Assembly: GCA_963930775.1 (NCBI GenBank)
Contig: OZ005695.1
Span: 2,790,001 to 2,854,000, forward strand
Origin: Cliona cf. orientalis
Lineage: Eukaryota; Porifera; Demospongiae; Clionaida; Clionaidae
Direction of reading: 5' to 3'
Length of the DNA: 64,000 nt
Shown here: positions 12,957 through 63,997 of the stretch, one piece after another
Layout: every line of letters starts with the position of its first letter
Position numbering within the stretch: position 1 is the first letter of the stretch
The notes under the pieces: generated by a model
Told to the model about the DNA's origin: nothing
The model's input: only the letters and a program-made list of their open reading frames with translations
The model's database searches: none
Made by a program: the position numbers and the translations under genes

Positions 12957-14495
12957 TTAATAATTTTCATCACTATCTATTTCATCACTAGTATCATTTG
13001 GCATGTCTTGAAAGTAATCCTCAACATCACTATCTGAGATTGTCTCGGGAGGAGGAACAAGTGCAGGGTGAAAATTGGTTAGAAATCCACATACACACAC
13101 GATTTGATTTATTTGACGAGCCATAGTGATAGGAATTGTTCCCTTCAGGATATCGAAATTCTTCATCCTGCCGATAGCACGTTCCACGTGTATCCGCAAT
13201 GACGCTATCTTCCTTCCTTCTTGTATTTCTTTTGCTGGGAGTTGTGCTCGTCCATCAAGAAAGGGGGGCATATTGAGATCGACACCGATTTCATTTAGCA
13301 TGCCTCGTATCGTAAATCCCCTGTCCGTCATGATGGATATTCCCGGTTTATCGTCTATTGTTGTCAAGAAGCCAGATTCACGGGTAAGTTCGACATCTGA
13401 GATGGAACCAACAAATACGGGAGATAAGTACGATATAGCACCATTTGGTGTACAGGCCACAAGAAACTTGGAAGTGTTGTGGTGTTTGTACTGACTCCAT
13501 GTCGATGACTGCAAGTTAAGGTCAGAGGGTGTCTCTATGAACACTTCACTGCCATCTATGATGGCATATGTGTTAGGATAAAATTTTCTGAAAGAGTGGG
13601 GGAGTGTTCCAGTTACTTGCTCTACCGTTGGTACCCAATCAATCTCCCTCAAGTGATGATAAAGAAAGCAGATCCATGTAGTTATGTAGCGGGACACCAC
13701 GCTTGCGGATATCTTGAAACGAAATGCCAAATCTTCTACCTTGAGGTTGAGCTTCAACTTCACCAGTGTGAGAAACAGCTGGTTCATTGGATCCAACTTT
13801 CTGGTACGGTGACGTTTGCGTTGGCCTTCCTTGGACCCCCAGTAGTTCAAGTCATTGACAACTGGCCCCAAAAACTCAAAAAAGGTCAGGAAGATCACAT
13901 AAGACGTGAATCCCGTATAGAAACGTACGAGCTGATCATCATCTTTTATTTGTTCGATTCTAAATGGACCCTCAGGTTGAGGTATCTCCTTTTTCTTGAG
14001 AGAGCGATTCTCTGCTTCCAGTGCCTCGATCCTTGCTATCAGAGCAGTGTTGACTAGGATATCTGTGTCCTTCTCCAGTGGTAATGGATTATCTGGAAGA
14101 GTTGCCTGAGGAGTGACTGACCGGCTGGTTTGAGGTGTACCAGCAAGTGTAGTTAGTGCTGGAGTCACTGACCTACTTCTACTTTCACTCTTCTCCCTTA
14201 GTTCACACAACTCTTTATCCTCACGTCTCCTTTTTGCTCTTTTAGCCCTTGGATGCCCCTTTTTCAAAGGAGAAGCAAATCTTTTCCCAAGGTTGACTTG
14301 TGGATCCTTTTTTACATCACCATCTGGAAAATGCCTCGAGCACACTCGAGAATATGACTTGACATCGCTCTCTGACAGCTGGAAGACCCTTAGCCAAACA
14401 TTTCTTCTTTCAGGATTACTAGGAAAGCGATGAAAAGAGGCACCTGGATCGCTAGAGCGATTGTTTCCACACGCTAGACAAGTATCCCCAGGCAT
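12957..14495 (-). CDS. THAP-domain DDE transposase (DDE_Tnp_4), intact
   Basis: An uninterrupted 512-residue frame starts at the ATG at 14495. Residues 6-55 form a THAP C2CH zinc finger (C6, C9, C52, H55, with the FHRFP motif). A basic stretch lies at about 72-92 and a short coiled region at about 150-170. Residues 225-280 look like the helix-turn-helix that precedes PIF/Harbinger DDE_4 domains. The catalytic triad is D314 (AIIDGSE), D391 (MTDRGF) and E438 (HVERAIGR). It should cut and paste the 10580-14744 element by recognising its inverted ends. It converges on the YqaJ gene, with about 57 bp between the stops. Intact length and motifs suggest recent activity. Confidence 0.93.
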   Translation of the reverse strand: MPGDTCLACGNNRSSDPGASFHRFPSNPERRNVWLRVFQLSESDVKSYSRVCSRHFPDGDVKKDPQVNLGKRFASPLKKGHPRAKRAKRRREDKELCELREKSESRSRSVTPALTTLAGTPQTSRSVTPQATLPDNPLPLEKDTDILVNTALIARIEALEAENRSLKKKEIPQPEGPFRIEQIKDDDQLVRFYTGFTSYVIFLTFFEFLGPVVNDLNYWGSKEGQRKRHRTRKLDPMNQLFLTLVKLKLNLKVEDLAFRFKISASVVSRYITTWICFLYHHLREIDWVPTVEQVTGTLPHSFRKFYPNTYAIIDGSEVFIETPSDLNLQSSTWSQYKHHNTSKFLVACTPNGAISYLSPVFVGSISDVELTRESGFLTTIDDKPGISIMTDRGFTIRGMLNEIGVDLNMPPFLDGRAQLPAKEIQEGRKIASLRIHVERAIGRMKNFDILKGTIPITMARQINQIVCVCGFLTNFHPALVPPPETISDSDVEDYFQDMPNDTSDEIDSDENY

Positions 14496-14744
14496 TTTGA
14501 TCGTAACTCAGCTATACTTCACCCAAAAATCTCCGTTCGCACCTCCACTTGCTTCTCTGAGACTATATTTTTTCATCGATTTCGTTTTATAAGTATATAC
14601 GGTATGATCATTGCGCAAGCGCGTTTAAAGCATGAGTGAGTTGCTATTCATAATAATAATCTGTATTACTGCTAAGCGTGCGGTGTACTCCGGATGTGAC
14701 GTCACGGAAGTGTACATTCCTCTGGGCTTACGCGCAAAAGGCCT

Positions 14745-33363: not shown

Positions 33364-36300
33364 ATGGAAGGCGGACTTCAGCCGATGGTCATGATCAGTC
33401 TCACTGTGGCGCTAATCTGGTAAGACTCAGAGTTGTATGCTTGAGTAAAGCTTGTAAAGGAGTAGCTATGATCATTAATTTTAATACTGCTACGTGTGCA
33501 GGGCACCAGTATCAAGAGGATCTTACATGGACCTTCCACGGCTTCATTTTGCTGGCCACTTTAGAGCTGATCCCAACACAAGAAACAACATCAACTGCAA
33601 CTACGATGCAGACGTTGGGATTGACTACAACTACAGCAGGGACTACAACTTTAAGGTACCATTAAATTGCGTGGGCGTGAGGTGGGGGATATGACACCTA
33701 AACCACATCAAAGTCATTAGTGAGGTGCATGTTGTGTAACCACGCCCTTTTAATTGCACAGGTCTCAGGGGTGTGGCTGCTAGAGCCGGAAGTGTTCATT
33801 TAACATCCTCCATGGACCGGAAGCCGAACCGGAAGGGAGGGGCCAGACCACGCCCAAAACAGCACCACCCTGTGCCTCAAGGACCACCATTCTCAATCAA
33901 GTGCCGACTGGCCACCGGATGTCCACCGGAAGCCCACAATCAATCCCAATTAAAACACACAGCTTCCTCAAGGCCGAAACACACACAAACACTTAGAGGC
34001 CGTTCTGCCACACCGCCCACACAAGAGCTCACCTCATTTCCTGTGTGGGCGGAGTAACAACACGTCATCGCAACCACATCCGCTTCAAACCATCGTCAGC
34101 TTCCGTCCAGCCGTACGGTCCCCTCCATCGCACCGGCGTTTAGTGCCTCATTAACAGACATGGCCTCACCTTTGACCTCCTGCCACGCCCCCAAAGCCTC
34201 CTCGCGGGGTTCAAAGGTCACCACCGCTTCCGGGACACGCCCACCTATCGCCGAGGCCAAGTCCCAGGCGCCGATATCCGAGCACTGGCCCGTGAAGCCA
34301 CGCCCAATCGGAAGCAATAAAACCTGCATTAACGCACACGCACACACTCCACACAGTGCCAGGAACACGCCCACATGTTTAATTAGGGCTTTTTTTTTTT
34401 TTTTTTTTTTTAAGTTGTTGCGGTTAATAGTTAAGAAAGAATGCTTTGATCTTGCTTTGAAGTGGGCAATTACCGGGGTTTTCTTCAGGGGCCACTTCCG
34501 GTCGCTAATTACACGCGCATAATCATCCCTGGCCGATTCTAGACACGCCCACCTTCGACCAAAAGCACTCGTATGGCCTCTTCGGCCACGCCCCTTCACG
34601 ATTCACTAATTGAATTAGCCAATCCTGACGCTCACGCCCACACACTTTAATGCTACCTTAATGGAACAGGGGAGTTCTCTTTCTTCAACTGCAAGGTCAC
34701 ATCTGTTGTCACAAAGGACGGTCAGTTCTCTACAACTGATCCAATCGTTGATAGTCCAGTAGTGAACAATGAAAACATGTCGTTCCCCAAACTGGTCGAT
34801 TTGGATGTCGACTATCAACTGATCAAGGCCACAGTTTATGGAATGAGGTTTGGAGTCGATTGGAAAAATGAGAATGGAACGAAAATGCTTGCATTTCAAG
34901 GTGACTGGGGATTAAATGTCATTGCTCAGGATCTCTGGAGTCGAGCTATTTGCATAGATACGAATTCAGTGGATGAGTCTCACAGATTTGGTGCGCACTC
35001 AGCAACCATGCTCAGCAACATGAAGTGGGGTGACGTCAGCAGGTCACCTGCTCTCCAGCAGCTCAGGGATGCTGTCGAGACTGAAAATGACAACAAACTC
35101 TCCGTTTCAATCACCCTCTACTTTTATACCAGAAACTACCCCACGTATCTCTTTGAAAACTTCACCCTTGGGTATGTGGTGGGCACTATTGGCGTTGCTA
35201 AACCAAACGAGCCCGTCAATTTTGGAGGAGATCGACTCTTGTCTTTTGATGGCATCAAGCAACCCAGCCTCCCTTTGGAAGGAAATGATTCATGCCTTGA
35301 ATATCAGGGAGGCAAAAATCAGCCATACTGGATGTATAAAGCACCTTTTCAGGTCAATGAGGAGAGAAAGGTGGTGACTGTTGATCTAAGTAACTCTATT
35401 TCCCAACATTTGCATGGAAACATTCGAGATGTCGGAAATTTATCGCTGGGTATTGTGACCACAATGGGAAATATCAGCTGTATTGTTCGCATTGGCGAAA
35501 ATATTCATTACAGGGAGCACTACTGGTTGGAAGAGACTGGAGGTGTTATTGACGAACAACTAACTGATATGCAAGTTAAGCTACTGCAGTCTTCAAAACT
35601 TGCAGTAATTCGACGAACTCATGACATTGTGTTTGATGCTGAGCTGGGGAATTACGATCCACAACTGAACGTGGTAGCATCATCAGGGCTTAATCAAACC
35701 TACCATCACTACATAGATTGTTCAGATGATAAAATTATCTACCAACTCATGCTTCTGGAGGCATCAAGATTCATAAGGCCCATGGAGTATTATGTTACTC
35801 GGTTGGAATACCAGGAATCCTTTGACGTAAAACTGTTGGTTAGTGGTTTTGGGAAACCTGTAGTAAAGGAACCGGTTCACCTTGCTCAACAAAACTATGA
35901 TCAAGCCATACCAGTAGATGGTGTTGTACCCGATTCAACCACAGTCTACACGGACAACAACGGAATTGCCACATTCACGTTTCAGGTGAAAGATAAACTT
36001 ACTTCAACAAGACAGTACCACGATCCTCAAGACCCATGCAATTTGACCCACATCCCAATAGATGGTCAGGTGTACATGTTCAACTACACAATGGAAGGAT
36101 CATGCACTAGTGATGCAAATAATCATGTGTCTAATCTTTCGTGCTCGAATGAGATAGCAATTCTGGCATTCTCTTATATTGAGCCCCCAGAGAATCCAAC
36201 CTGGGTTAAGGATATTTATCCTATCTTTCACCAGTACGATCGTATTACCCCTGTAATGCATCAGATGATTAATCTATCAAACTACTACGATGTTGTGAAC

Positions 36301-37692
36301 AATACTGAACTTATCAAACTTGCTATGCAGCTAGACTTCAACCATCCCAGTTACATGCCAGCAACTAGAGATTTATCACCAACAAAACAAAAAATGGTCC
36401 TAAAATGGTTCGAAAATCCCATCCATGGTGAAAGTGATTCTTCAAACAAGGAAATAATCCCTGCAACTCTCTTGTGTGCACAACCATCAACCATAGCTAC
36501 TGTTAATCTCGTAGATCGATACTTTTTGCCACCTAGATGTGACATAAACGCTTTACTTGGCGCAGATGACACTCCAGGTGCCAGTGATATATACTTCAAA
36601 AAAATCTTTGAAAACGTACACAATCACAACCAACGCCCCCTCTGGCGTGTGCACCTAGGCGATGAGCACAAATGCAGTCAGAGAAATCTTTTAGGACAAC
36701 TGCAACTAGCTGTTGAACTCGAGTTTTCCACCCTACCCGTTTATCTCACTTCTCTCTACTCCATTGTCCACGGCTGTAATCTCGAGGTATATGAACTTAT
36801 CTATTCTGTGATAATGCAAGAGATGCTGCATTTGGTACAAGCTGCCAACATCCTCATAGGTATTGGAGGCACACCGATAATCGACAGCAAGGAGACGGTT
36901 CCAACGTACCCCACGATCGGACTGCCAGGTGGGGTCCTTCCTCGTTTAAGAGTCACCCTCGAGAAAGCATCGCTGATCCACATCTACAAGGTATTCATGG
37001 GGATTGAAGTACCCCACAATACATCTGTAGATATGCCTAAGCCACATATCTCCAATGACACAATTGGACAGTTCTATGCTGAAATTAGGTACTGTATTGA
37101 TAAGCTAGGAGATGACATATTTGTTGGAGGTGGACGACCAGATTTACAAGTGCAGTGGCCTTGGCCAATCAATGATAGTTCATTTGGAGAAGTGCACACA
37201 GTGACAAATGTTGAGTCAGCAAATGAAGCCATAGATGAAATCGTCGAGCAGGGTGAAGGTGCAAACCCATACAACCCCACATACGACGACGTAGGGGATC
37301 TTGCCCACTTTTACAAATTCGAGGAGATAGTGTGTCAGAGACACCTGAGACAAGTGACTGTAAATGGCACAAAATATTACCAGTACAGTGGGGCTGACAT
37401 TCACTTTGAACCAGAAGGCGTGTGGCAAATGAGAGATAACCCGAGCAAAGAGTGCATCCCCCCGAACAACAATTGCTATACTGAGGCCAGGGCATTCCAC
37501 GCTGCCTACCGTTCCCTGCTCAGGGCTCTCCAGCGAGTCTTCAGCGGACATCCTGAAGAAATTAGTAAAGTTGTGACCAACATGGAGTCTCTTGGAGTCC
37601 ATGCTCGTAAGCTGATGTGGACGAAAGTTACACCCGACGATGACCTCACCTGCGGTCCAGTGTGGGACTACGAATGGGATGACTACAATTAA
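33364..37692 (+). CDS. Secreted VioB/RebD-like protein (iminophenyl-pyruvate dimer synthase family), exon split by a transposon
   Basis: Exon 1 is 33364-33419. Exon 2 starts at 33502 and, apart from the TTAA element (33655-34657) and one duplicated TTAA, is open to the TAA at 37692. Without the insertion the product is 1,079 residues, close to VioB and RebD (about 1,000). The N-terminus is a signal peptide (hydrophobic run VMISLTVALIW). It is followed by DLPRLHFAGHFRADPNTRN, which parallels the FPRIHFRG start of VioB. Downstream come SYMPATRDLSPTK and a ferritin-like region: ELEF near residue 755, MQEMLHL (E790, H793), and DLAHFYKFEE (H952, E957) as probable metal ligands. Bacterial relatives couple oxidised tryptophan (indole-pyruvate imine) into dimers. 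Many Asn-X-Ser/Thr sites fit secretion. Substrate and activity are unknown. Confidence 0.85.
33655..34657 (-). mobile_element. 1.0-kb TTAA element inserted in a coding exon (copy 1)
   Basis: Flanked by TTAA at 33651-33654 and 34658-34661. Ends GGTACCATTAAATTGCGTGG and (TGTGTGGG...TTTAATGCTACC) are inverted repeats. Its body is the reverse complement of the 39097-40114 copy, including a long T/A run. The 167- and 120-codon frames inside reflect shared DNA, not a demonstrated gene. TTAA duplication suggests piggyBac- or Kolobok-driven movement. Confidence 0.9.
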
Positions 37693-38357
37693 TTTTTTAA
37701 TAGCTAGTTAGCCTTAAAAGAGAAAGAGCCCTTAAAATTTTCTAATTTTCTCTGACTTTGATGATTTACCTCTCCTTTTACCATTTCCTCCTCATTTCCT
37801 TGTCTTGGTTTGTACCAGAATTGTAAAATGGGTTTTGGGTTTGTTCCACATCTTTAATTTCATTATAGGACAATCTGAGTCAGGGCTGCCCAATTGGCAC
37901 CCACTATAGTTGTGAATGTTAATGCGCCCCTAATTTTGATATCCTTGATATTTTTGTAGCTATGAGGAATAAAGCATACTCACAATCAAATTTCTATATA
38001 CATATTATAGATCTATTAGCACAATATGTCATCTAATGTAATATATTATGCATGATTATATGTGTGCATGTGGGTGTGCACAAGCATAGAAACACTCTCA
38101 AAATTAATTCGATCAGATCATTAAAATTATTAGCTTAATCAATAGAGATCATCGGCTACTACAAACATAGCTGGATTGGTGATAAGCACCTCATTGAACC
38201 CTAGCTAGCTTTAAAAAAAACTAGCTCTTGTATAATCATGGATAAATATTACAACATGATATGAGTATGATTAAAAATCAAATAGTGAAATATAGCTGAT
38301 GAATACATACCAGTACACAAACTTCGGTACAGCTTTACTTTGCAGGAGCTGCGTAAG
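37693..38357. other. 3' flank of the VioB-like gene, no gene
   Basis: A/T-rich with candidate polyadenylation contexts (aataaag near 37969). No coding signal. Confidence 0.5.
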
Positions 38358-38522
38358 TCACTGCCAGTCACTTCTTTCCTCCCTGGCTGAGATTGGTGGG
38401 TACTTATTAGAACCATCAATACACTCCACCATGACCTCATTATCAGGATGGACAAAGAAAGCCATCGACTGACGAACAGTTCTCCACCGAACCTCATCAT
38501 CAGGAAGCAACACTCTGTGAGG
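38358..38522 (-). pseudogene. Inverted extra copy of the 2OG-oxygenase terminal exon
   Basis: Read on minus, this matches exon 7 of the adjacent oxygenase: it starts PHRVLLPDDEVRWRTVRQS with the preceding pyrimidine tract and CAG acceptor also conserved (ccttccctccgtgcag). Identity stops after AREE; the copy then ends at TGA (38360-38358) with a different short tail. No matching upstream exons exist on this strand, so it is a partial inverted duplication rather than a working gene, unless used as an alternative exon. Confidence 0.75.
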
Positions 38523-38919
38523 CTGCACGGAGGGAAGGGGGGAGATGTATGGTCAGTTCACTGTACACAAGTAGCTATAAAAAAGAATTGAAAATTAAAG
38601 GATGAAGTAGGGATGGCAGGGCCAAAAAGTAGATTTGTAGGGATAATCACATTCACTAGATCATCCCTAGCGTGCACCGCCGGGTCTATTATCATTGATG
38701 CATGTCAATAAATTTAATTATGTTGCTTACTAAATGCTATAATATATTATATTTGATTCTATAATAAACTTATTATGATATTGCATATGGGTGAAATATT
38801 TTGACTAGTACTAGTGATGATTGTCGGATTACTGGTTATCTCAAAAAGCAAGCATTGGTAATGGTCGCCAAAACGTATCCACGTTTGGTAATGGTCATCG
38901 TGAATAGAAGTAAAATAAT

Positions 38920-39339
38920 ATGTCGCAGGCCGAGATTCCAGTGGTGGATTTTTGCGGAGTATTTTCGTGCGCCGATCTTGCTGGCTGTCCGCAGACTGCG
39001 CAACTCCACTCCGCTTTCACAACTGTTGGCTTTGTCTTCATCAAGAATCATAGCATCCCAAGAAAGCTGGTGAGCTGAGATCGAGATTCTATTTAAGGTA
39101 CCATTTAATTGCGTGGGCGTGAGCGTCAGGAATAGCTAATTCAATTAGCGAATCGTGAAGGGGCGTGGCCGAAGAGGCCATACGAGTGCTTTTGGTCGAA
39201 GGTGGGCGTGTCTAGAATCGGCCAGGGATGATTATGCACGTGTAATTAGCGACCGGAAGTGGCCCCTGAAGAAAACACCGGTAATTGCCCACTTCAAAGC
39301 AAGATCAAAGCATTCTTTCTTAACTATTAACCGCAACGA

Positions 39340-39375
<36 letters not shown>

Positions 39376-42300
39376 ATTAGGCCTAATTAAGCATGTGGGC
39401 GTGTTCCTGGCACTGTGTGGAGTGTGTGCGTGTGCGTTAATGCAGGTTTTATTGCTTCCGATTGGGCGTGGCTTCACGGGCCAGTGCTTGGATATCGGGG
39501 CCTGGAACTTGGCCGCGGCGATAGGTGGGCGTGTCCCGGATGCGGTGGTGACCTTTGCACCCGGCCAGGAGGCTTCGGGGGCGTGGCAGGAGGTCAAAGG
39601 TGAGGCCGTGTCAGTTAATGAGGCACTGTACGGCGGTGCGATCGAGGGGCCTGTACGGCTGGACGGAAGCCGACGATGGTTTGAAACGGATGTGGTTGCG
39701 ATGACGTGTTGTTACTCCGACCACACAGGAAATGAGGTGAGCTCTTGCGTGGGCGGTGTGGCAGAACGGCCTCCAAGTGTTTGTGTGTGTTTTGGCCTTG
39801 AGGAAGCTGTGTGTTTTAATTGGGATTGATTGTGGGCTTCCGGTGGACATCCGGTGGTTAGTAGGCACTTGATTGAGAATGGTGGTCCTTGGGGAACAGG
39901 GTGGGGCTGTTTTGGGCGTGGCCTGGCCCCTCCCTTCCGGCTCGGCTTCCGGTCCATGGAGGATATTAAATGAACACTTCCGGCTCTAGCAGCCACACCC
40001 CTGAGACCTGTGCAATTAAAAGGGCGTGGTTACACAACATGCACCTCACTAATGACTTTGATGTGGTTTAGGTGTCATATCCCCCACCTCATGCCCACGC
40101 AATTTAATGGTACCTTAATACACGTGGCTTGTCACGTGATATTTTGGACCACCATAGAGCTGGCCTGACTACCTCCTGACCCATAGGGATCCTTATATGG
40201 CAGGGCCAGGGGATCTAACTATTTTAATATAATATGGACTGGGGAACTAAAAATGGGGGTCCAAATTTGCAGGGGTGGCCAAGGTGCTGAAGGTCGATCA
40301 TGCATGGGCCAATATCTCAATATTAAAACACACGTCGGGGCCATTTCAGTACATTACCAATATAATATTATAGTACGATAGCTAGCAATGTGTGCTATGA
40401 CCCACCTGACTATAGCTACATTAATGGGATTAAAAGTCAGGCTGTCTTCTCAAATTGGTGCACATGGTCTTGCTAGACTTGTGTTAACCCTGTCTAGGTG
40501 GATGATGCCTTTTCAGTATCAAGACAATTCTTCACACTGCCGAGTGACGTGAAGATGAAGTGTCTGCGTTGCTATGGGAGTGGTCCTGGGCGCACTGGCA
40601 ACAATGGATACGTCTGTCTCGAGCAGGAAAAGTATGTCTGATAAGTGTTATGTATTGTATGTCCAAATGTTTCGCTGGGCAAAAATTTCGCCAAGCCCAG
40701 TTACCTTTGTATTGCAGACATATTCGCTGGGATATTGAACTTCGCCAAGCTCAATCACTATGCATACATGATAGCTACTTTTTATATAAATCATTAACAT
40801 GGGAAATAATTTCAAGTTTCATCAGTGAGAGTAAGATTTGGTGGCGAAATTGGCAAAAATTTCTGGGTATAACTTTTGTAGATCTATTAACAGTTTGTCA
40901 GTTATGTACAATAGTACCGTAAATCTGGAAAATTTCGTTGTTGAAATATTTTCGTAGTCCCTGTCGACTACGAAATTAAATATCATGAAAAATTTTCTAC
41001 GTTGAAATTTTAAAGCAGCGAAATATTAGAGCGTGTGCGCATGCGCGAACGTACGTACGTACAGCTACAGCCAGCAGTGCAGTACGGGGCGGTCCACGTG
41101 TTCAAGAGTCGATCAACCTTGCTGCCTACCTATCTCAGTTTGTTGTCGACGGCTGCTCACTAGATTGTAGGCCTTTTCGTGATCTTCTTAGCAAGTAAAA
41201 GCATTGCTAATAAAATTTCGATGTAAAATTACTTTCGTAGGCTGAGTCGTCCTACGAAAATTTTTAAACACGAAATTTTTTATTATGAAAGTTTTATTAC
41301 ACGAAAATTTCCAGATTTACGGTATATGAGAGTGTTTAATTATGAGACCTTCATTGTTTTTCTCAGCACCAACGCCACCATGCCAGGTGACTTGAAGGAG
41401 TGCTACAACATCTGTGCCTACAAAACATGCGTAAGCGTGAAGATACTTAGGGAGAGTTCCCACGGGACATTATTTTTACCTATCACCCCTAGTTCTCGGC
41501 TAGGGATGCAGTGCCTTTACAGGTTTACCTGTGCAGGCAATGGGAGAGTTTCCCTAGGCCTTTGGTTCAGGTATACATGTACATTGTATATGCATGTACA
41601 ACATGTACATGTACATGTACATGTATATCACATGAATCAAGAGTATAATAATTATACTCTTGCATGAATGCATTAAGTTTTTTACCATGCTATGCAAAGC
41701 ATATTCCCCGGATAGGCTCAGAGGGCTGGGCAGGGCTAGGCTAGCCATGTACCCACAGCTTTTCAATGTTGCAATAACAGTTGAATAATGTCGTTGAAAA
41801 TTGGAGTGGCCTGGGGACGAGGATCATTTTAGCCCTAACCTTCCTACTTTGTTGCATAGAGATAAGCATTCTTATTATTTTTATCCTTATGTATGTAGCT
41901 GTATCCAACTGAGGAGTTGCCTCAGTTTCAGACTGTGATGACAGAGCTGTTTGAGGAGTGCAGTCGAGTGGCACTGAAGATCCTTGAAGTGATGGGCCAC
42001 AGCCTAGGATTATCAGTCAGTCATTGCCTGAATTATTATTATTGTACTGAATAGTGGATGCAAGTGGTAAAGGGTCGTTTGCGGCACATGCTAGCTGTAT
42101 ATAGCCACAGTTAATCACTCTGTGCAAGTTACTCGACATCGAGCAGTTCTCATGTCCCATAAATGGCTCTCTGCTTTGAATTACGCATAGATTACCTTGC
42201 AGTTATCTAGTGCTAGTTGTCTAATGACAACAAATTGCCTGTGCATACTTATGCCTTCATAATATGGTGTCAGATAGCTATAGTATCTCATTCAACTCCA

Positions 42301-45477: not shown

Positions 45478-47689
45478 CCAAATCTCTCAATGGTACTCCA
45501 ACTCAGTGATAATTTAGGCAGTGTCATTCTTCAATCAATTATGTATGCAATTTGAATAATTTGGTCTATGTATGTGCATGAGTACACTCGTAAAGACTTC
45601 AGCTAAAAATGGCTTTTTTCCTTATGGTATCGTTAAGAGCAAGAGTACCAATACTATACATGTACAGGTATGTACTCTTTGGTATTGTGTCATGCAGTTC
45701 CCTTCCTATACTACCGTTCTAGAGGAATTTAAAATATTGTGCATAAATAATACAGTACAGTATGATCATAGATTCAAAAGTGATACAAACCAAAAAAGGC
45801 CACTTACATAATTGTTATGGTTGATCGGAGGCAACTGTTTCATACGTTCTTTTCCCTCTAAACGGAGCCCAGGGTAGGCAGGCCCCTAGCAGCAGCGACA
45901 CACCAAACAGTGCGTACAATACACCTCTCAGCGGTGCTCTCTCGTCAATGAAATAGTTGACAAGGCTTTGTCGTTCTTCCGTAGTGTACAGCACTCCAAT
46001 ACTCACAGCACAGAAAACATGAAGAGAAGAAGCATACATGTACGCCTCTTCTCTTCATGTGCTCCTGATCTTACTATACACACCTCTAAGCCCTACCTAT
46101 TTCACACTTGTACTTTAATTTGCATCCAGAATATTTTTTCCTGGATTCTGCAAAATAAACCAAGGGACAACTTAGGATCTAAGCCACTAATATCACCACC
46201 AATCGGTGCAGCATATACACTGTCTTGTAAGCTTTTTTGGTCTCATTTGTACACCACACACTTTCTAATTACCAAAACCAGACCAGTACCTTTATTTTCA
46301 TGTCTGTATTCATAATCTAGAGTTGTGCCATACTAAACAGTTGACATGGTATATTGGTGACTTCTGTGTTTGTGTACTAATCAGCCAAGTTGAACACTTA
46401 TATTATTATTATTATGAAAGTTCATTGAGATGTGGTGGCAACAAGCTAGAAGTAGGCATGTCAGAAGTCTAAAATATTGCTTTAAAAAAGTCTGCTCACA
46501 GCCAAATACTGCAATGTTTCAAGGCTCATAACTCCTTAATGCAGTGTGCTATGAACTCCAAACTTGAACCAATGGCTTCAGGAATGTCAGCTCTACATTG
46601 TAGTATCCGGAATGTTGGGTTAAAACCACTTCCGGCATTGCAAGGCTTCAGGGAAATTCCACAAAATTCTATACATTGATAAGGATGGCACACAAAGATT
46701 GCCAGTGGGTTCCTTCAATTTGTTCCACCAGGCTCACTTCACTGGTGGGTTTAATGGTCCTAGGGGTAACTTGAGGTGCTGATTCCAAATTTTTTAGTAT
46801 TTTCAACCATTTCTGAAGTATTTCGTTGAAAACCACTCGAAGAGCATTTTTTATGAGCTAAAACAACATAGATACATGCCACAAAATGTGTCGAAAATAT
46901 GAAAAACGAAAATTTCGTCCAAAATTACCCCTGGTTAAATTGTTTTAATCAAAAAAAATTCCTCACAGAAAATGCACACAATAAAAACGTCCACCTCAGT
47001 TTCTTAAGAACTATGAATTTGATCTCTGTCTCTCACAGTTGAAGTGCTGATGAATCCTGTGGACATGTGTGCATGCATAATAATGTGTATGTAGGGGTGT
47101 GCATGTGTATGTGAATATAATATTAATTATGTGTATGTGTGCATGTGTGTATGTCACTGCGTGGCAACAGGATTATCCAGGCCCACATTAAATCAACATC
47201 AGTTGATAGCTAGCAGTCACTGTAACTACTATAATGACTCTCTATCACCTCTAAGTATCCCATAATTGGGAATTAAAATCATGTTACTATGGAAACTAGA
47301 GTTCTATACAGCACATACCCCATGCACACATTGCGCAATCTATAGATCTGCTTTTGTTGTTGCTTGGTTGTATCAAGGACTTTAATATAGACCCCATAAG
47401 CCCCTGGTTGTATAATATAGGGCTCTTGGTGATATAATATATGGTAATAACTGGTACCAAATGTTGAAATGTACATGGCACATAAGGGAGTACCAGTATA
47501 CTAAATGACTGTTTGCACCACAACCAATGTTCATAGTCAGGTTTCACATGTACAAATGGAATTACTGCTGTCCAGACAATAGACAGGCACCTGCACTAGT
47601 AACTCAGTACTAACAAAGAAGTGAATCAGAGTTGGCAGAAAGTCAGTGTTTCAGAAAACCTTGTTGGGACGATTTAACACTCTACAGGT
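45478..47689. other. Mostly no gene; one possible minus-strand exon
   Basis: At about 46000-45815 (minus) an open stretch ends in TAA-type termination after a hydrophobic helix (GVLYALFGVSLLLGACL) and a basic tail. It may be the last exon of a membrane protein, but no partner exon was found. At 46025-46060 a hairpin (GAAGAGAAG and its complement around gcatacatgtacgc) lies at its start. About 46240-46450 resembles part of the 52-54 kb tandem repeat. Otherwise nothing recognised. Confidence 0.35.
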
Positions 47690-50600
47690 ATGTATCCTCA
47701 ATGCCAAAAGCATGGTATCTCCCCAGAAGCCATAAATAAAGATTTACCTGAGGTAGAACACCTTACAAATGCGCTGATAGTGGAGTTAAACAGCATCAGA
47801 TTATCACAAAACTACACATGGCAAACGTTTCATGGTTGGATACAAGCTCTGCTGGGAAAGAATTACCCATGTACAGCTGAAGCTCCATCTACATCATCCC
47901 TTCGAGCTGCTGTGGTAAAGCTTGAGGCTAAAAGAAAACTAATAAAAAAGAAAGCAGATACTAGCTTACTGGATGAGTTTAATCGTGAACAGTTCCTGCT
48001 CCCTGGTCGACGACACAAGCATAGTTCACCTGATCCTGTTGAAACCGTGAAAGTGCATCCCGAGGTGGAGGTTCATAAGCAAGTGAATATTCAGTTGGCA
48101 AAGGAGTTAGCTGAAAAATCACAAGAGTTATCGAGCGTTAGAGACAGATACGATAAATTAAGACAGCAACATGAGGCAAGCATATCAAGAATACGAAATA
48201 AAAATAAATTAATTAAAAGGAGAGATGTAGCCTTACAAAATATGGATGAATCATTGCAAAAATCAAAGGAACTCCTGGCAGCTACCACCGAGAATTTAGA
48301 AACAGCAGAAAAAGAATTAAGTGGACTAAGACTGAGCCAGAAACGGTTGAATCAACGGATGTCATACTGGAAAGAAAAAGCGCAAAGTCTAGCACGTACA
48401 GATGATGATGCAGTGGTGGAGGAATTGATACACTACCATGAAGAGATAGAAAAGCTGAATGAACAGATAACGTTCTTAGAAAAAGATAATATTGAATTAA
48501 AAGAGCAGGTAGAGGGGTTCCTAAAATCGGATGACATCACTTCCTTTGAGGGAGGTAAGTATTCTGATGACATCAGAGCCTGCTACTATGAGCTTATGTC
48601 AATGAATGTGGGCTTACGTAATATTGAAATAATAATTCGTTCTGTTCTTAATAAGATAGCACACAAAAGCATTGGCCGACTTCCAAGCTATGCTCTCGCA
48701 TCACAGATGTTAGCCGAGTCACTTGTGGTAGCTCAGGCACAATTAGCTGAAAAATTAGTTACAAGTGAGCATAATACACTTCATTCAGATGGCACAACAA
48801 AATTTGGTGCACACTATGGTGCTGTAGAGGTATCTACCGAAAGTGGAACATACACCATTGGTATAAGAAATATGTTTTCAGGGAGTGCACAAAGTACTCT
48901 GGACGTTTTCAAGGAAATACTGGAAGATATTGATGCCATAAACACATCCTTAGGTAGAGATAGTGCCCTCACCAAAATTGTAGCAAGTATCAAAAATACA
49001 ATGTCTGACAGACATGTGGTTCAAAAGAATTTCAATGAGCTTCTTGAAAATTATCGCTCAGAAGTCCTACCAATAGCACTTGAAGACTGGGCTACACTAT
49101 CTGAGGTGGAGAAGGCACAAATTCAGCGAATGAATAATTTTTTCTGTGGCCTACATTTCATAACAGGACTGGCCGATAGTGCAGAAGCAGTGCTTAAACA
49201 ATGGGAAAGTACAGTACTTGATCCAAATGTAGGAAGTAGGTCATTACCAGAGAACAGAGGATACCAATCTTCTGAATCGGGAACTCAGCGACTGATTAGA
49301 ACTGTATGTAAAGCTTTCCACAAGAGGGGCTCTGAGCAAGCCGGGTATCCTATACAATTTGCTACTTATTTACGGAGTAAAGGAATTACGAAAGTTCCCT
49401 TAGCGTCATTTATTGGCAACAGATTTAACATTATATTCTATGATGCTGCTGGGGTATACTATCTACGGGATCACATATTCGAATTTTTTCAGACACAGGA
49501 TACAGCAAACAGACTTCTCCGTTCGGTAGAAGCTGATTTGTGTGTACCCGAGCTAATTGCTGGTTGCAAGGCCTTAGGTTTAATTGATAAGCTGGTCACA
49601 GGTCCTCTTTGGAGGATACTTGAAGATAGCACTATTTCAATAGTGAAAATGAGCGATAAATATGCAGAAATGGAGCGAAAATTCATTGCATGGTCAGTAG
49701 ACTCATCTAGGCTACTAACAGGTGATGAAAATCTTTACGGTGATGCTTTAGTACACCATGACGAGGTCCTACACCAGCTACTACAGCCCTCAGGATATGA
49801 CGTAATTGCACAGGAAGTACTACAAGTAATTTTTACCAGCTTTTTATGCACTACAAGGCGTATGCTAGAAGACCACCTACCAGGCGGCAAGTATTCGAGC
49901 CCTGATGAAACAGTACAGGCCGAAACAACTTCAGTTCCTAAAACAAATGTTATCTCTGAGAGAGATTTTGCCATGCTTGATAGACAGGTCCGCCTTAAAC
50001 CAAATGCCACCTTGATAGCTTTAGAGGCTGTTATAATGTATGCAAACAATCAAACACAAAAGTGGGTGGAAGAACAGACAGCGGGAGATCGTGAAAAATT
50101 GTTTGCTCTCGCACGAAAGAAGGCAAAATTCATAAAGAAACAGTTTTATGACCGTCGGCAATTAATTGAAGAGCAGCGTATGAAAAAGCAAGAACAACAG
50201 CTAAAGGCTAGGGAACAGAGAAGATTAAAAGAAGTTCAAGAGAAAGAGAAATGGGTAGATAAGCTTCAAGCTTACGGCCTTTGGAAATCGGAAGAGGAAA
50301 TAGAGGAAGGACTAAAGAAGCTATCCAAAAAGATGCTATCATTACGCAGATTAGGTTTCGACAGAAGGTTTTGGGACAAACACATAAAGATCATAACGTG
50401 TTTCATGTAACCAAAGATCGTAAGTACCTCACAATTCAACAACTGACAGAAAATTTGTGCAAACTTCTAGTACCACCCCCAAAAAGTGACCCTCTCCCTT
50501 CAACTCACATGTCATTGACAGAAGCAGTACTACTTCGTCACCCAGAAAGGCTCTGTGGCAGTAGAATCGAGCACCTTTTTTATGACGAGGAGAATGATTC

Positions 50601-58461: not shown

Positions 58462-59386
58462 CTCGTCTCGTGCGCCCGGACAGTCTTACCCCTGTCACTC
58501 ATATTATCATGCATGCTATGGTATGGTGATGCTCATCCAACACTCTTAGTTCAAAACTCATTATGCAGATAGTACCTAGACCCTCTCTCGCATTAATTTT
58601 TGTAAAGCTCACCAACTTAACAGCCAGCGAGAGAGAGTTTAGCTGGCTAGACTAAGTGGTTCATGTATGAATTGTTTAAAAGCGATATATATTGTACATG
58701 TAACTTAATTATTAGTGTTGCAGCTGCAAGGGGGGTGAATAATAATTAGCACCTTCAGTGGATGTCACATTCAGAATGTGCACTCTACACTGCATTTTGG
58801 TGCTAACACAGCGCCACATTTTATCTAATTCTGTGGCTGTAAGGGCTAAATTAGTATGGTACCAACATTATATTGGAACACCTATGCTGTATGTAATGAC
58901 CAGCACAACGAAGTTTCTATAGTTGATCACTAATAATTTGGTTATAGCCAGATTAATTGTTTATAAGTCATGCAGAAAACTTCTAGATCTGTAAGATAAA
59001 CAATAAATAGTTGCAGGAAGGAAATTCAGTGCATAGAACCACCCTCTCTGTCTATAGAACTAAGAAAATCACCGCTATGGCTCACCTTCACCTTTAATAG
59101 CGTTCAAACAGATCAATTGGACTGATAGGAGTGATCATGCGACACGACCGAAGTTAAGTAGGCGTGGTTTCAAAATTTTCGCGCGCGCTTCGCCCCTTCA
59201 GGAAATCCTGGATCCCGCCACTGGTTGGATCTCATGGAGTCTAGCTACATCCTGTGACATCAGGTATAAATTTCTAGAATCAAGCTAGATTTGGTACTGT
59301 CAAAGTCCTCATATGGACGGTCATTCATGTGGTGAATTTGAAGTTCAAGCCAAGATCAGTACAATTTTTGCATTCGGACTCCTGAT
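58462..59386. other. No gene recognised
   Basis: Intergenic between the minus-strand RING exon and the plus-strand borosin-type gene. A possible element end (atcccgccactgg) is near 59211-59223. Confidence 0.45.
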
Positions 59387-59509: not shown

Positions 59510-62500
59510 ATGACTGAATCAAAAACATTGACCACTTCTGAAGCTCAGCGTGAAGATGAATGGAATCAGTTGACTACGCTTATAGCTGAAGATGCAATAA
59601 AGCATGGTCAGTACACAAGGAGCTAGCCACAGTGGTTAAATAATTAACTATATTTATTAGCACTTATGTACAAGCATGCACTTGAGGACTAATCGTAGCT
59701 AGTTATGTACATTAATTTTTTTTCTTTAACTGCATGCAGACTACTTTGAAGCTAAACACAGCTTCCAGGAAAATGGTGGCAAACTGATTGTGATTGGATC
59801 AGGAATACGCTGTGTTGGCCAATTCACATTGGAGTCTCATGCTCATATCAAGAAAGCTGATAAGGTTCTGTATGTCATTTCCGACCCTGTTACTGAAGCC
59901 TATGTTCGAGAGCTCCGCCCTGATGCCTTGGATCTCTATGTCCTCTATGGCAATGACAAACGTCGTCACATTACCTACACTCAAATGGCTGAAGCATGTC
60001 TCTATTTTGCTAGGAAGGGAAACTACACTGTCGCCATCTTCTATGGTCATCCTGGTGTATTTTGCTGGCCAGTTCACAGAATGCTCCGTGTGGCCAAGAT
60101 GCAAGGTTTGTAAAAATTAATATTCTTAATTTGCAGGCATACAGTGCATGTGCTATCAAATAAAAGACTGTAATCTCAGATCTACACAAGCTAGTGTACA
60201 TGTATACACCTTTGTATGGTTGTATCCTATAACATCCCCCCCCCCCCCCTCATTCTAGTTCACAATGGAGATGCCAGACAAGTGCTTGGGTTGTCAGTGC
60301 CTCCAAGTTGCTCTCCTATCTTTCAGTATAAATCTTCCCATTAATTTTTTCAGTATTTGCAAGCAGTTTCTTATATTAAAAGAGTTCCATGTATGATGTA
60401 GCTATGCGGAGTCTTACGGAGTGAACATGAATTAAGGTCAATGCTGGGCTTGAAACAAACAGGCTAGATAAACTTGCGTGTACGTTTAAACAAACGTGCG
60501 TGTACGTGTGACGACCTATTCCGGTCACGTATGAGTTTACCGCATTTTCTCGTTATTAGACACATTTCGCTTATTACCGGTATTCGTTATTAAATGATAC
60601 CGCTAACGCGCATGCGTTCTTGATGTAGCTATTTTTAGTTCGACGCATCTCGCTGTTAGGCGCACTTCACTATTAAGCGCAGGTTTTCTTCCGATGGAGA
60701 TATAAGCGCATGCGCTAAATAGCGGGAAAATACGGTATGCCGTTCGTGCGCTCGCTCAGATCAGTGGTCGAGCTTTTCACAGTACACGGGCACGCAGAAT
60801 GGGTCAAAATATGACATTTGACGGCGGGAAATTTTGATTCACACCTCTTTGAAGTATTCCCATAATAATACCGTACCCTCGCGAAAGAGGGCCCACTACG
60901 GAATGTCGGCCCACCCCTCACTTTGGGCTCAATTTCCTGCTAAGGTCTAGTGTTTACTCGAATATGCGCCCATGCGTAGCTGCCCTTGAAAGCGCAGCTC
61001 AAATGCATGAAATTGCTGGACTGTACTTCGAATAATCTATATAAAATCGATAAATAACGTGCTAAACAGCCGTAAAACTAACTTTATGCCACGTTTCAGC
61101 ACAAATGAACGATCGTACACAGCTAGCGATCGTAGCCACGCCCACTGAATACGGCTGCACTCAACGACACACGGTGAAGTATCGCGGCCGCCCTTGCTCT
61201 GGATTGGTAACCGTGCTTGAATAAGGCTGAAATCAATAGTAGCCGCTGCTACTATTCAAATTATGAAGCTAGCGTGAGTAACTTACCTGGGCGCTCTTTC
61301 GAGTATAAACGCGATACATATCTCGAATATCGGCCCACCCCCCCAATTTTGGCCCAATGTAAGGTGCACCGCCCATGGGCCCTCTTTCGCGAGGGTACGG
61401 TATACACAGGGAAGCCATGCATTTGCAATGTTTCCCGCCCACGCGCTGCGTGACGGGCACACATAAACGTGACGACCTTTAGACCAATTTGGTCAAAATG
61501 GTACTGTCTAGTCTGGCTCTTCTAAGCATCCAGATCAACTATGTGGTGGTTTCCGGACAATTTTTTACCCCGCGCGCATGCGCAAGGGGTAAAACAATCG
61601 TCGTTGTCGGCACGAAAATCGCCAGATCTTGAGTTCTAGGCGTCTGTACGTGCTGTAATCACAACCAATCGGTACGTATCGTTGAAAAATTGGTTTCTAT
61701 GCGCTTAGAATTGCTGAAAATGGCTTTAAATACTAGTGCTGCATTTTCTGTTCAGCATGCCTGTGATTTATCGACCACACATACGACTGCGCATGGTCAA
61801 GCTCAGTGTTGGAAAGGGTCGCCAAGTCATAAAACAGCTATGCCGCAGAGTGTTGCAATACTACGCTACTGCAGAGCGCGCGGGGTATGTGCTCTACAGA
61901 GCTCTAGTTTATTCTGCTTAGTGTGCGGTCTCCTTGAAAAAAAAAACAGGAAGTTGAAAGAGTAGCAGCCCAAGTGTGATTTTCACAATAAATCCATGAT
62001 TACGGTGGAATCAGCTGTTATATATCCCAGGCTTAGTGACTATACTTGAAAGTTTTGTGCTATCAGCAGCAATGATAGTGTTCGTGACAAGCTATTAACT
62101 AAGTGAACTTGCTCACGGTATTCGAACAGAGGGATCTTTCACATCATTATACCAAGATATTGCTTGTAAGACGAGGCACAATAAGGCCAGCATACTTTGA
62201 AGGAAAAAATAATTACTAGTTCTCTTATTGCTAAGTGTGGAAGCCAGTTTGAGTGGTGTCATCAAAACCGCTACTAGCGTGAAGCCTTGTGCTTCATTAT
62301 TCCCATAGGAGTTGCTGCCTCAACATGACCTCATGACCTCTGAACTAAACCTTGCTGTTTTTATCATAATCAGCTGAGCACCTAGCTTGAAAGTGTCCAG
62401 TATATTATATAGCTAGAATAACTATGAAGAGTTTGGAGGAGATTTAGGTCAGGTTTTATGAAGATAAGCTTAGCTAGTCTTCATCAAGGCTATTGATGGT

Positions 62501-63997
62501 GTTGCTAGATAGCTAGTTGAATCATGAGTTGATTACTAGCTAGTTGATGTATAGACTTTGTACCTCAACTGTCGCAGTGCTAGCTGATGATATAGAGATT
62601 ACTTTAGATATCAACTAGCTACAACTAACTAGCTTCTTCATACTGTACAGCTAGCAGGTATTAATTACAGTTCTTTTCACGAAATACATGGGTGCTAAAA
62701 TTCACATGTATGTAAGCAGATTGAGCTGCTGTCAAAATTCGTCTTTATGCTAATATAAAATGCACTTGCATATATTATTTGCAAATGATGACCATCACCC
62801 AAAGAATTACCGTGTTTGTTAATGGGATGCAAGCTAAAAAAATAATTACGATTTTAAAATTTGCGCGATATTCTGGTAAAGGTCGTCACACGCTCCATTA
62901 AGATACCGGGTACACTATGAAAAATCCTAGAACGCGAATTTTCTTGCGCTAATTAGATCATGCGTTTTTTATTTGTTACCAGTCGTGATAGGTACAATGT
63001 AGGGTCTGTCAGATCTGTTAAATAAGACATTAATTTGGCATGGCCATGCTCAAGAAATTCAATTGTTTCTATAGGAATACCTGCACAAATGCTACCTGGA
63101 ATCTCAGCAGAGGATTGCTTACTTGCCGATCTGGGAATAGATCCTTCACACAATGGGTTACAGTCTTTAGAAGCCACTGATCTTCTTATTCGAGATCGTC
63201 AATTGCTGACTGACTCCAATATCATCATTTGGCAGGTGGGATGTGTGGGTGAAGTTGGCTTCAACTTCAAAGGTTATAGCAACCGATTCCTTGGAGTGTT
63301 GATTAACAAGCTTCAGCAAGTGTATGGAAAAGATTACGAAATCATTCACTACATTGGAGCTCACTACTCCATTTATGAACCAGTGACCGAGCGCATACCA
63401 CTGAGTGACTTTCACAAACCTGAAGTCTCCAAGAAGGTGACGGGTATCTCAACCTTTTTTGTCCCACCCAAAGAGGTTCGCCCTGTGAAGAAAGATGTTT
63501 GTGAATTGCTACAGATTACTGCAGATGAGCAAGCAACAAAGCCACGGCCAATGCCTACCGAAGATAAAAGCCATCAGTATGCTAAGCCACAAAAAGATGC
63601 TGTAAGCGAGTTGAGTGACTGGAAGGTTCCCCGAGATTATGTGCATGTACAACCCACAATGGCTGCCCGGTACCTAGCCAGAATGAGCACTGATCCTGAA
63701 GCCCTGGAGAAGCATAAGCAAGATCCCTCAGCAGCAATGAACAGATTTGGGCTCTCCAGCCGTGAAAATCAGCTCATCAAGAATCGGAAAGCATTTGTGG
63801 CGGTCAAGTCAAGTGATGGTGGCACTGGTGGCACTGGTGGCACTGGTGGCCCTGGTGGCCCTGGTGACACTGGTGGCACTCCTGTGACTACAGATGTCAC
63901 TACTGAAGAAGCAGTGGTTGATGCAGTCGAAGAAGTTGTAATAGTAATTGCTGCAAAGAAGGAGTCAGTTGTTCCAGGGACAATTCCTTACGTTTAG
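59510..63997 (+). CDS. Borosin-type fused peptide alpha-N-methyltransferase/precursor, three exons
   Basis: Exons 59510-59606, 59740-60105 and 63075-63997 join in phase to 461 residues. Residues 47-290 are a tetrapyrrole-methylase-fold SAM methyltransferase with LIVIGSG (48-54), SDPVTEA (80-86), Y99/Y102, R108 and Y112 in a KRRHITYTQM block, FYGHPGVF (133-140) and LPGISAEDCLLADLGIDPS. These align residue for residue with the fungal omphalotin enzyme OphMA, including its Arg/Tyr active-site set. Next come a clasp-like helical region (about 300-395), a Gly/Thr/Pro linker (402-424) and a hydrophobic tail (442-448) ending 13 residues before the stop. OphMA is 417 residues with the same order and methylates its own C-terminal backbone amides. 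Self-methylation and any processing here are inference. Intron 2 (2,969 bp) is full of MITEs. Confidence 0.93.
60538..60737. mobile_element. MITE with TACCGCATTTTCTCG-type ends in borosin intron 2
   Basis: The left TACCGCATTTTCTCGTTATT pairs loosely with the right (TAGCGGGAAAATACGGTA). Internal gttat and cgcatgcg units are inverted. Member of the TACCGTA group with a diverged left end. Confidence 0.6.
60869..61402. mobile_element. MITE with TACCGTACCCTCGCGAAAGA ends in borosin intron 2
   Basis: The left TACCGTACCCTCGCGAAAGA is a perfect inverse of the right end (TCTTTCGCGAGGGTACGGTA), and cgccca-type subterminal pieces also pair. It is inserted into an older repeat (60786-61560) whose uninterrupted relative is at about 28720-28990. 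Confidence 0.85.
61560..61915. repeat. Dispersed noncoding repeat (copy 2 of 15180-15665)
   Basis: Shares cacgaaaatcgccagatct, gcattttctgttcagcatgc and gagcgcgcggggtatgtgct with the copy at 15.3 kb. Located in borosin intron 2, showing that this gene resides in the same genome as the rest of the window. Confidence 0.75.
61916..63074. other. Rest of borosin intron 2, no gene
   Basis: Near 62875-62970, ttctggtaaaggtcgtca and tagatcatgcgtt recur from about 4878-4960. The intron ends with TTTCTATAG at 63066-63074. Confidence 0.6.
63815..63883 (+). repeat. GGTGGCACT minisatellite encoding the Gly/Thr linker
   Basis: In-frame repeats of ggtggcact and ggtggccct encode residues 402-424 between the clasp-like region and the presumed core. 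Such a repeat can change copy number without breaking frame. Confidence 0.85.
63905..63994 (+). other. Presumed core and follower segment of the borosin precursor
   Basis: Encodes residues 432-461: an acidic lead-in, a beta-branched hydrophobic stretch (EEVVIVIAAKK, 440-450) and a short C-terminal follower. In OphMA the methylated core is likewise a Val/Ile/Gly-rich string just before a short follower. Exact methylated positions cannot be read from DNA. Confidence 0.65.

Follow-up and report, generated by a model that had tools for sequence, protein, structure and literature searches.

The window analyzed here, a 64,000-nt stretch of contig OZ005695.1 from the sponge Cliona cf. orientalis, carries near its 3′ end a three-exon gene whose product resembles the fused borosins, proteins in which a peptide backbone N-methyltransferase and its own core peptide share one chain (Table 1). 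We consider it probable that this single nuclear locus is the sponge's own gene for a fused borosin precursor, predicted to methylate its own tail. The coordinates and the length of 461 residues given in an initial annotation made from the sequence proved exact, and its description of a spliced gene holds for both introns: an annotated protein of the sponge Ephydatia aligns through the exon 1/2 junction, and the phmmer alignment to OphMA continues uninterrupted past the exon 2/3 junction. In genome searches, exon 2 had a single match in the 217-Mb assembly, while exon 3 found, besides itself, one weak match only (E 0.61).

Table 1. Features of the borosin-type gene (window positions; aa, amino acids; MITE, miniature inverted-repeat transposable element)
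Feature	Position	Strand	Details and evidence
Whole gene	59510..63997	+	3 exons, 2 GT-AG introns, 1386 nt spliced, 461 aa
Exon 1: N-terminal helix with W..L motif, residues 1-32 and part of codon 33	59510..59606	+	ATG at 59510; donor GTCAGT
Intron 1, 133 bp, GTCAGT...TGCAG	59607..59739	+	Ephydatia protein aligns through junction
Exon 2: N-terminal half of S-adenosylmethionine-dependent alpha-N-methyltransferase domain	59740..60105	+	Pfam TP_methylase E 9.3e-13; OphMA alignment
Active-site block Y99, Y102, R108, Y112, Y134	59937..60044	+	OphMA alignment
Intron 2, 2969 bp, GTTTGT...TATAG	60106..63074	+	OphMA alignment continuous across junction
MITE inside intron 2	60868..61403	.	28-nt perfect terminal inverted repeats at 60868-60895 and 61376-61403
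Exon 3: methyltransferase C-terminal half, clasp, linker, core-like tail, stop	63075..63997	+	Homology; exon-3 fold model
Clasp-like helical region, ~residues 287-400	63470..63811	+	phmmer alignment to residue 374; HHalign
Gly/Thr/Pro linker from 9-bp tandem repeat, 7.1 copies	63817..63880	+	Poorly conserved in relatives
Core-like tail, residues 433-461, EAVVDAVEEVVIVIAAKKESVVPGTIPYV	63908..63994	+	26/29 identical in the relative P0002
Hydrophobic run VVIVIAA, residues 442-448	63935..63955	+	Sequence; analogy with OphMA and KchMA cores
Stop codon	63995-63997	+	Spliced model

The methyltransferase domain is homologous to that of OphMA and SonM. Among PDB sequences searched with phmmer, dbOphM (6mjf) is the top match (E 1.7e-81, residues 40-374), and OphMA (5n0o) matches at E 2.4e-81 over residues 41-374, with 99 of 206 residues identical in an ungapped alignment starting at residue 41. 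The five active-site residues named in the initial annotation are all present, aligning with OphMA Y63, Y66, R72, Y76 and Y98 (numbered as the PDB chain index plus one), which supplies the catalytic Tyr/Arg set of a fused borosin. TP_methylase is the sole Pfam family above its curated cut-off; matches to LigA (E 0.0074, below cut-off) and Corona_7 (E 0.13) were dismissed as chance or low complexity, as were the PDB chains matching the linker or tail, the best of which was a focal adhesion kinase construct (E 1.3e-4). Between the methyltransferase and the candidate core lies a clasp, recognizable by sequence and by profile: HHalign comparison of six animal-type rows (P0002, P0003 and P0005 not among them) with four fungal ones gave a probability of 98.0 and an E of 2e-13 for this single pair. 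Methyltransferase, clasp and candidate core thus stand in one chain, as in the OphMA-type architecture that had been proposed from the sequence. In Foldseek, a fold model built from exon 3 alone matches OphA at E 1.1e-20 over 255 columns.

To place the gene among its relatives, we used a family search, in which 1493 of 7999 scored candidates passed at E up to 0.001; the named animals among the best 120 of these are Ephydatia muelleri, Oscarella lobularis, Pecten maximus, Ylistrum balloti and Argopecten irradians. A second search with the animal alignment (1377 of 8000) adds further fungi and one protein each from EukProt and from MMETSP, a collection of marine microbial eukaryotes. The relatives P0002-P0005, at 61-83% identity, appear to come from sponges, and the metagenomic P0001 would likewise be a sponge sequence. 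These relatives bear on the C-terminal end of the protein. Identity to P0002 amounts to 125/141 in residues 160-300, 69/90 in 301-390, 16/26 in 391-432 and 26/29 in the tail (433-461). A motif like DDTTVVVVIAAEGEE is present in two copies in P0005, five in P0004 and six in P0003, which would amount to one, two, five or six cores in related sequences. P0003, P0004, P0005 and the window protein all terminate in a PGTIPYV-like stretch, and P0006 ends in TVVVVVIL. The window protein therefore bears a candidate hydrophobic core at the C terminus of the same chain; we infer that the tail is the core, and VVIVIAA would be the stretch likeliest to be methylated, by analogy with known cores. In the exon 3 model, residues 404-461 have predicted local distance difference test scores below 50, taken as disorder, and the low-confidence linker is presumably flexible. 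A further relative, the MMETSP transcript P0138 (679 aa), combines a borosin methyltransferase domain with three separate Val/Ile-rich runs and looks like another multi-core borosin.

In OphMA, each partner of the dimer has its tail methylated by the other, starting at the N-terminal end and moving toward the C terminus (PMC8429565). Based on this model, two sponge chains would form an interlocked dimer in which each chain's clasp guides its own tail into the active site of the partner, and S-adenosylmethionine-dependent alpha-N-methylation would proceed stepwise, N to C, over VVIVIAA. A host protease might then release the tail, possibly by cutting at nearby acidic or lysine residues, and VVPGTIPYV would be a follower removed in the process. 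Several tandem cores in the related metagenomic sequences, probably from other sponges, would give several peptides per chain. The bacterial protein KchMA, for which fused type III borosin activity has been shown, prefers Ala, Val and Leu, with Asp sometimes modified (PMC11395268), a preference in keeping with a core of Val, Ile and Ala set among acidic residues. From these likenesses we predict self-methylation, release and a peptide product.

The assembly includes a mitochondrial contig of 19.6 kb, read with code 4; among at least 120 relatives of its nad5, those with a name reach 82% identity at most and bear sponge labels, Tethya, Cliona and Xestospongia being among the nearest, and one cluster is labelled Metazoa only. 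The terminal inverted repeats of the MITE in intron 2 are perfect, and of 1111 first-look candidates 40 were scored, all of them long matches at 90-100% identity, own copy included; at least 39 other long copies are thus present in the genome, at 90-97% identity (nearest 97%), and the element has probably been active recently. The gene sits on a contig of 9.99 Mb (C7), with pieces of a myosin gene downstream on the opposite strand, ~10-30 kb away. Six of these pieces were scanned: four have myosin domains (best Myosin_head E 2.5e-44) and two have no match, while Myosin_tail_1 (5.3e-07) and one of the three Myosin_head matches (1.1e-06) fall below the curated cut-off. Because a host MITE lies in intron 2 and a myosin gene downstream, we conclude that the gene is the sponge's own, in agreement with the initial annotation, which had proposed a spliced copy, encoded by the animal, with host-type MITEs in its intron.

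A number of observations weigh against a self-methylating precursor. Neither of the two monomer models brings the clasp into superposition with OphA, and both place it differently from the crystal; the root-mean-square deviation in Foldseek is 15.5-24.3 Å over alignments to fused proteins, and for the exon 3 model 49 of 50 listed VIA rows end at or before model residue 167. As for the tail, five V/I in a row arise in 486 of 20,000 shuffles of this protein (~2%), so that composition alone is weak evidence for a core, conservation in relatives being the stronger argument. The metagenomic open reading frame (ORF) P0001 matches 53% of the query at 98% identity but terminates in SSDDSSTFSTLPILYVS, with no Val/Ile run. 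This tail was looked for and not found in the three forward frames from window position 59001 through 10 kb downstream, and P0001 may represent an allele or a sister species that lacks the core. None of the three scallop proteins shows such a Val/Ile run or an obvious core, and the Oscarella protein (279 aa) ends before the clasp. The Ephydatia protein P0007 (651 aa) has A, F, R, C and P at the five catalytic positions, four of which are therefore lost. Finally, no dedicated peptidase gene that might release the core, or cyclize it as in omphalotins, was seen beside the borosin gene, and the sole prolyl-oligopeptidase-type locus found (PF02897) sits on another contig (C12), unlinked to it.

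Some of these points would be explained if the protein were an active borosin-family N-methyltransferase acting in trans on a separate sponge peptide or protein, with the tail serving dimer formation, localization or stability. Split borosins do work in trans (PMC8429565), the scallop relatives keep all five active-site residues yet show no Val/Ile core, and P0001 is nearly identical without the tail. Nevertheless, the tail is conserved like the catalytic part while the linker is not, the motif is tandemly repeated in relatives, and the genome search found no second locus with such repeats, all of which make this alternative unlikely. That search, run with the P0003 tail, gave two matches at E up to 1, both dropped: the one on C11 (E 1.7e-5) falls on the antisense strand of a long, unrelated ORF with repeats, and the other, on C18, has an E of 0.55. 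A split borosin (type IV) was rejected as well, the tail being in the same frame as the enzyme.

Still less probable is a decaying gene, an inherited or captured borosin whose product is no longer made. The Ephydatia protein lends this reading some weight: having lost four active-site residues, P0007 probably lacks this kind of enzyme activity, so not all sponges retain the trait. The different tail of the metagenomic P0001 and the MITE inserted in the intron point the same way, whereas in the window copy the frame is open, the splice sites are canonical and none of the five catalytic residues is missing, and the protein's conservation relative to P0002 varies by region as selection would predict. 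P0007 also carries a long C-terminal extension. Bacterial or fungal contamination or an assembly artefact, which the microbe-rich nature of sponges and a neighboring tree group of bacterial or metagenomic rows might suggest, was rejected as scarcely credible on account of the two introns, the host MITE in the gene, the 9.99-Mb contig and the myosin neighbor, with related proteins annotated from sponge and scallop genomes besides. An ordinary corrin/porphyrin-type methylase with an unrelated tail is equally remote: TP_methylase is indeed the only Pfam family above cut-off, but in the PDB search corrin methylases reach just ~1e-3 against ~2e-81 for OphMA and dbOphM, so that the outcome named in the initial annotation as fatal to its proposal, matches to corrin/porphyrin methylases or diphthine synthases only, with neither clasp nor core, did not occur.

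We then considered the descent of the gene, which we judge on trees built from 70 (71-row tree) and 46 (47-row tree) of 141 fetched family rows, P0011 being in neither; metagenomic rows without a name are called bacterial by inference. In the 47-row tree, which leaves out Ephydatia for its long branch, eight rows counted as animal (named or inferred) form one group with P0006 and P0013, including Oscarella, the scallops and the window gene; its support of 82/87 is not decisive. This group adjoins 17 bacterial or metagenomic rows and stands apart from the fungi. In the 71-row tree the animals with P0006 and P0013 are split into two groups, which share an open fork with a bacterial one, and Ephydatia joins the window gene and its close relatives with a support of 91. 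Of 142 sequences, 50 carry the N-terminal W..L helix: the window protein, Ephydatia, the three scallops, P0006, P0013 and 43 bacterial or metagenomic rows. P0001-P0005 are without that end, and the helix is missing from Oscarella and from all four fungal sequences (0/4). Because this helix is common to animal and bacterial or metagenomic rows and found in none of the four fungal ones, the sequences hint at a bacterial source for the animal gene, and one transfer and several would both fit. Named bacterial relatives, at 36-44% identity, come from Paenibacillus, Erwinia, Burkholderia, Sphingomonas, Trinickia and Saccharopolyspora (7 loci).

Compared with OphMA and dbOphMA, fungal fused precursors of the omphalotin type, the sponge protein has the same order of methyltransferase, clasp and C-terminal hydrophobic core in one chain and the same catalytic Tyr/Arg residues; it differs in its longer N-terminal helix with W..L, its long Gly/Thr linker, the acidic surroundings of the core, its C-terminal PGTIPYV and the location of the only prolyl-oligopeptidase-type locus on another contig. 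The type III borosins AboMA and KchMA are likewise fused, and their core of alternating acidic and other residues resembles the DDTTVVVVIAAEGEE motif of P0003 (PMC11395268), whereas the host here is an animal and the animal rows side with other bacterial or metagenomic proteins, not with Kitasatospora P0022 and P0036. In SonM/SonA (type IV), by contrast, enzyme and precursor are separate. The statement in the initial annotation that fused borosins are described from fungi and split ones from bacteria needs correction, given that KchMA is a bacterial fused borosin and that Xu and colleagues predicted a metazoan one from the coral Paramuricea clavata in 2024 (PMC11395268). That coral protein is also fused, animal and known by sequence only; the likeness is drawn from its description, and the excerpts of that paper mention neither sponges nor scallops. 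The proline-rich macrocyclic peptides that sponge hosts make ribosomally offer a parallel, with no backbone N-methyltransferase mentioned in the excerpts covering them (PMC11382151). Beyond the one metazoan borosin in PMC11395268, the literature searched gave no other, the word "metazoan" in PMC12710340, PMC9505594 and PMC8222398 concerning other matters and the borosin passages and word search of PMC11285071 giving no animal borosin; more may exist. No description of tandem-core relatives was found in the borosin, OphMA and N-methylation literature searched, which covers the relevant papers in part. An animal borosin is thus not wholly new; the present case adds solid genomic evidence from a sponge, extends the known range among animals and brings in relatives with tandem cores.

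Backbone N-methylation gives peptides stability and aids membrane crossing, and has long been read as a mark of non-ribosomal synthesis, while producers of sponge peptides are known among both host and symbionts. Enzymes that methylate their own tail, a route to stable peptides resembling drugs, have been studied to date in fungi and bacteria. If our interpretation is correct, some sponge peptides may come from the animal and not from its microbes. Such a precursor, encoded in the chromosome of an animal, would turn that animal into a producer of N-methylated peptides and allow a direct test of who makes sponge peptides, and tandem-core relatives would serve as templates for peptide engineering, a value tempered by the 2024 coral prediction. 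We hold a broader reading only tentatively, at somewhat less than an even chance: that a native borosin family, either of great age in animals or acquired more than once from bacteria, is shared by sponges with at least one family of bivalves, and that in sponges it works as a multi-core peptide factory. The animal, not its symbionts, would in that case be able to produce backbone N-methylated peptides, and some of the N-methyl peptides of sponges now classed as non-ribosomal could be encoded by the host.

Other features lie around the gene. At 2.8 and 7.5 kb past the window end, the strand of the borosin gene has two stretches (L008:2758-3063 and L008:7465-7845) in which 2OG-Fe(II) oxygenase and DIOX_N domains were recognized, possible tailoring enzymes; DIOX_N had five matches only in the genome search, one of them at this locus. 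Within the window, a 910-aa single-piece ORF (47678-50410) has no Pfam or PHROGs match at E 0.001, and a 516-aa ORF (12957-14507) with THAP, HTH_Tnp_4 and DDE_Tnp_4 domains is a transposase in one open frame. A 1013-aa ORF (34651-37692, within window positions 33651-40118) has a Ferritin-like domain (PF12902, E 1.9e-48) and is flanked by inverted repeats of 761 and 272 nt with 95-96% complementarity, and may for this reason ride on a mobile or duplicated segment.

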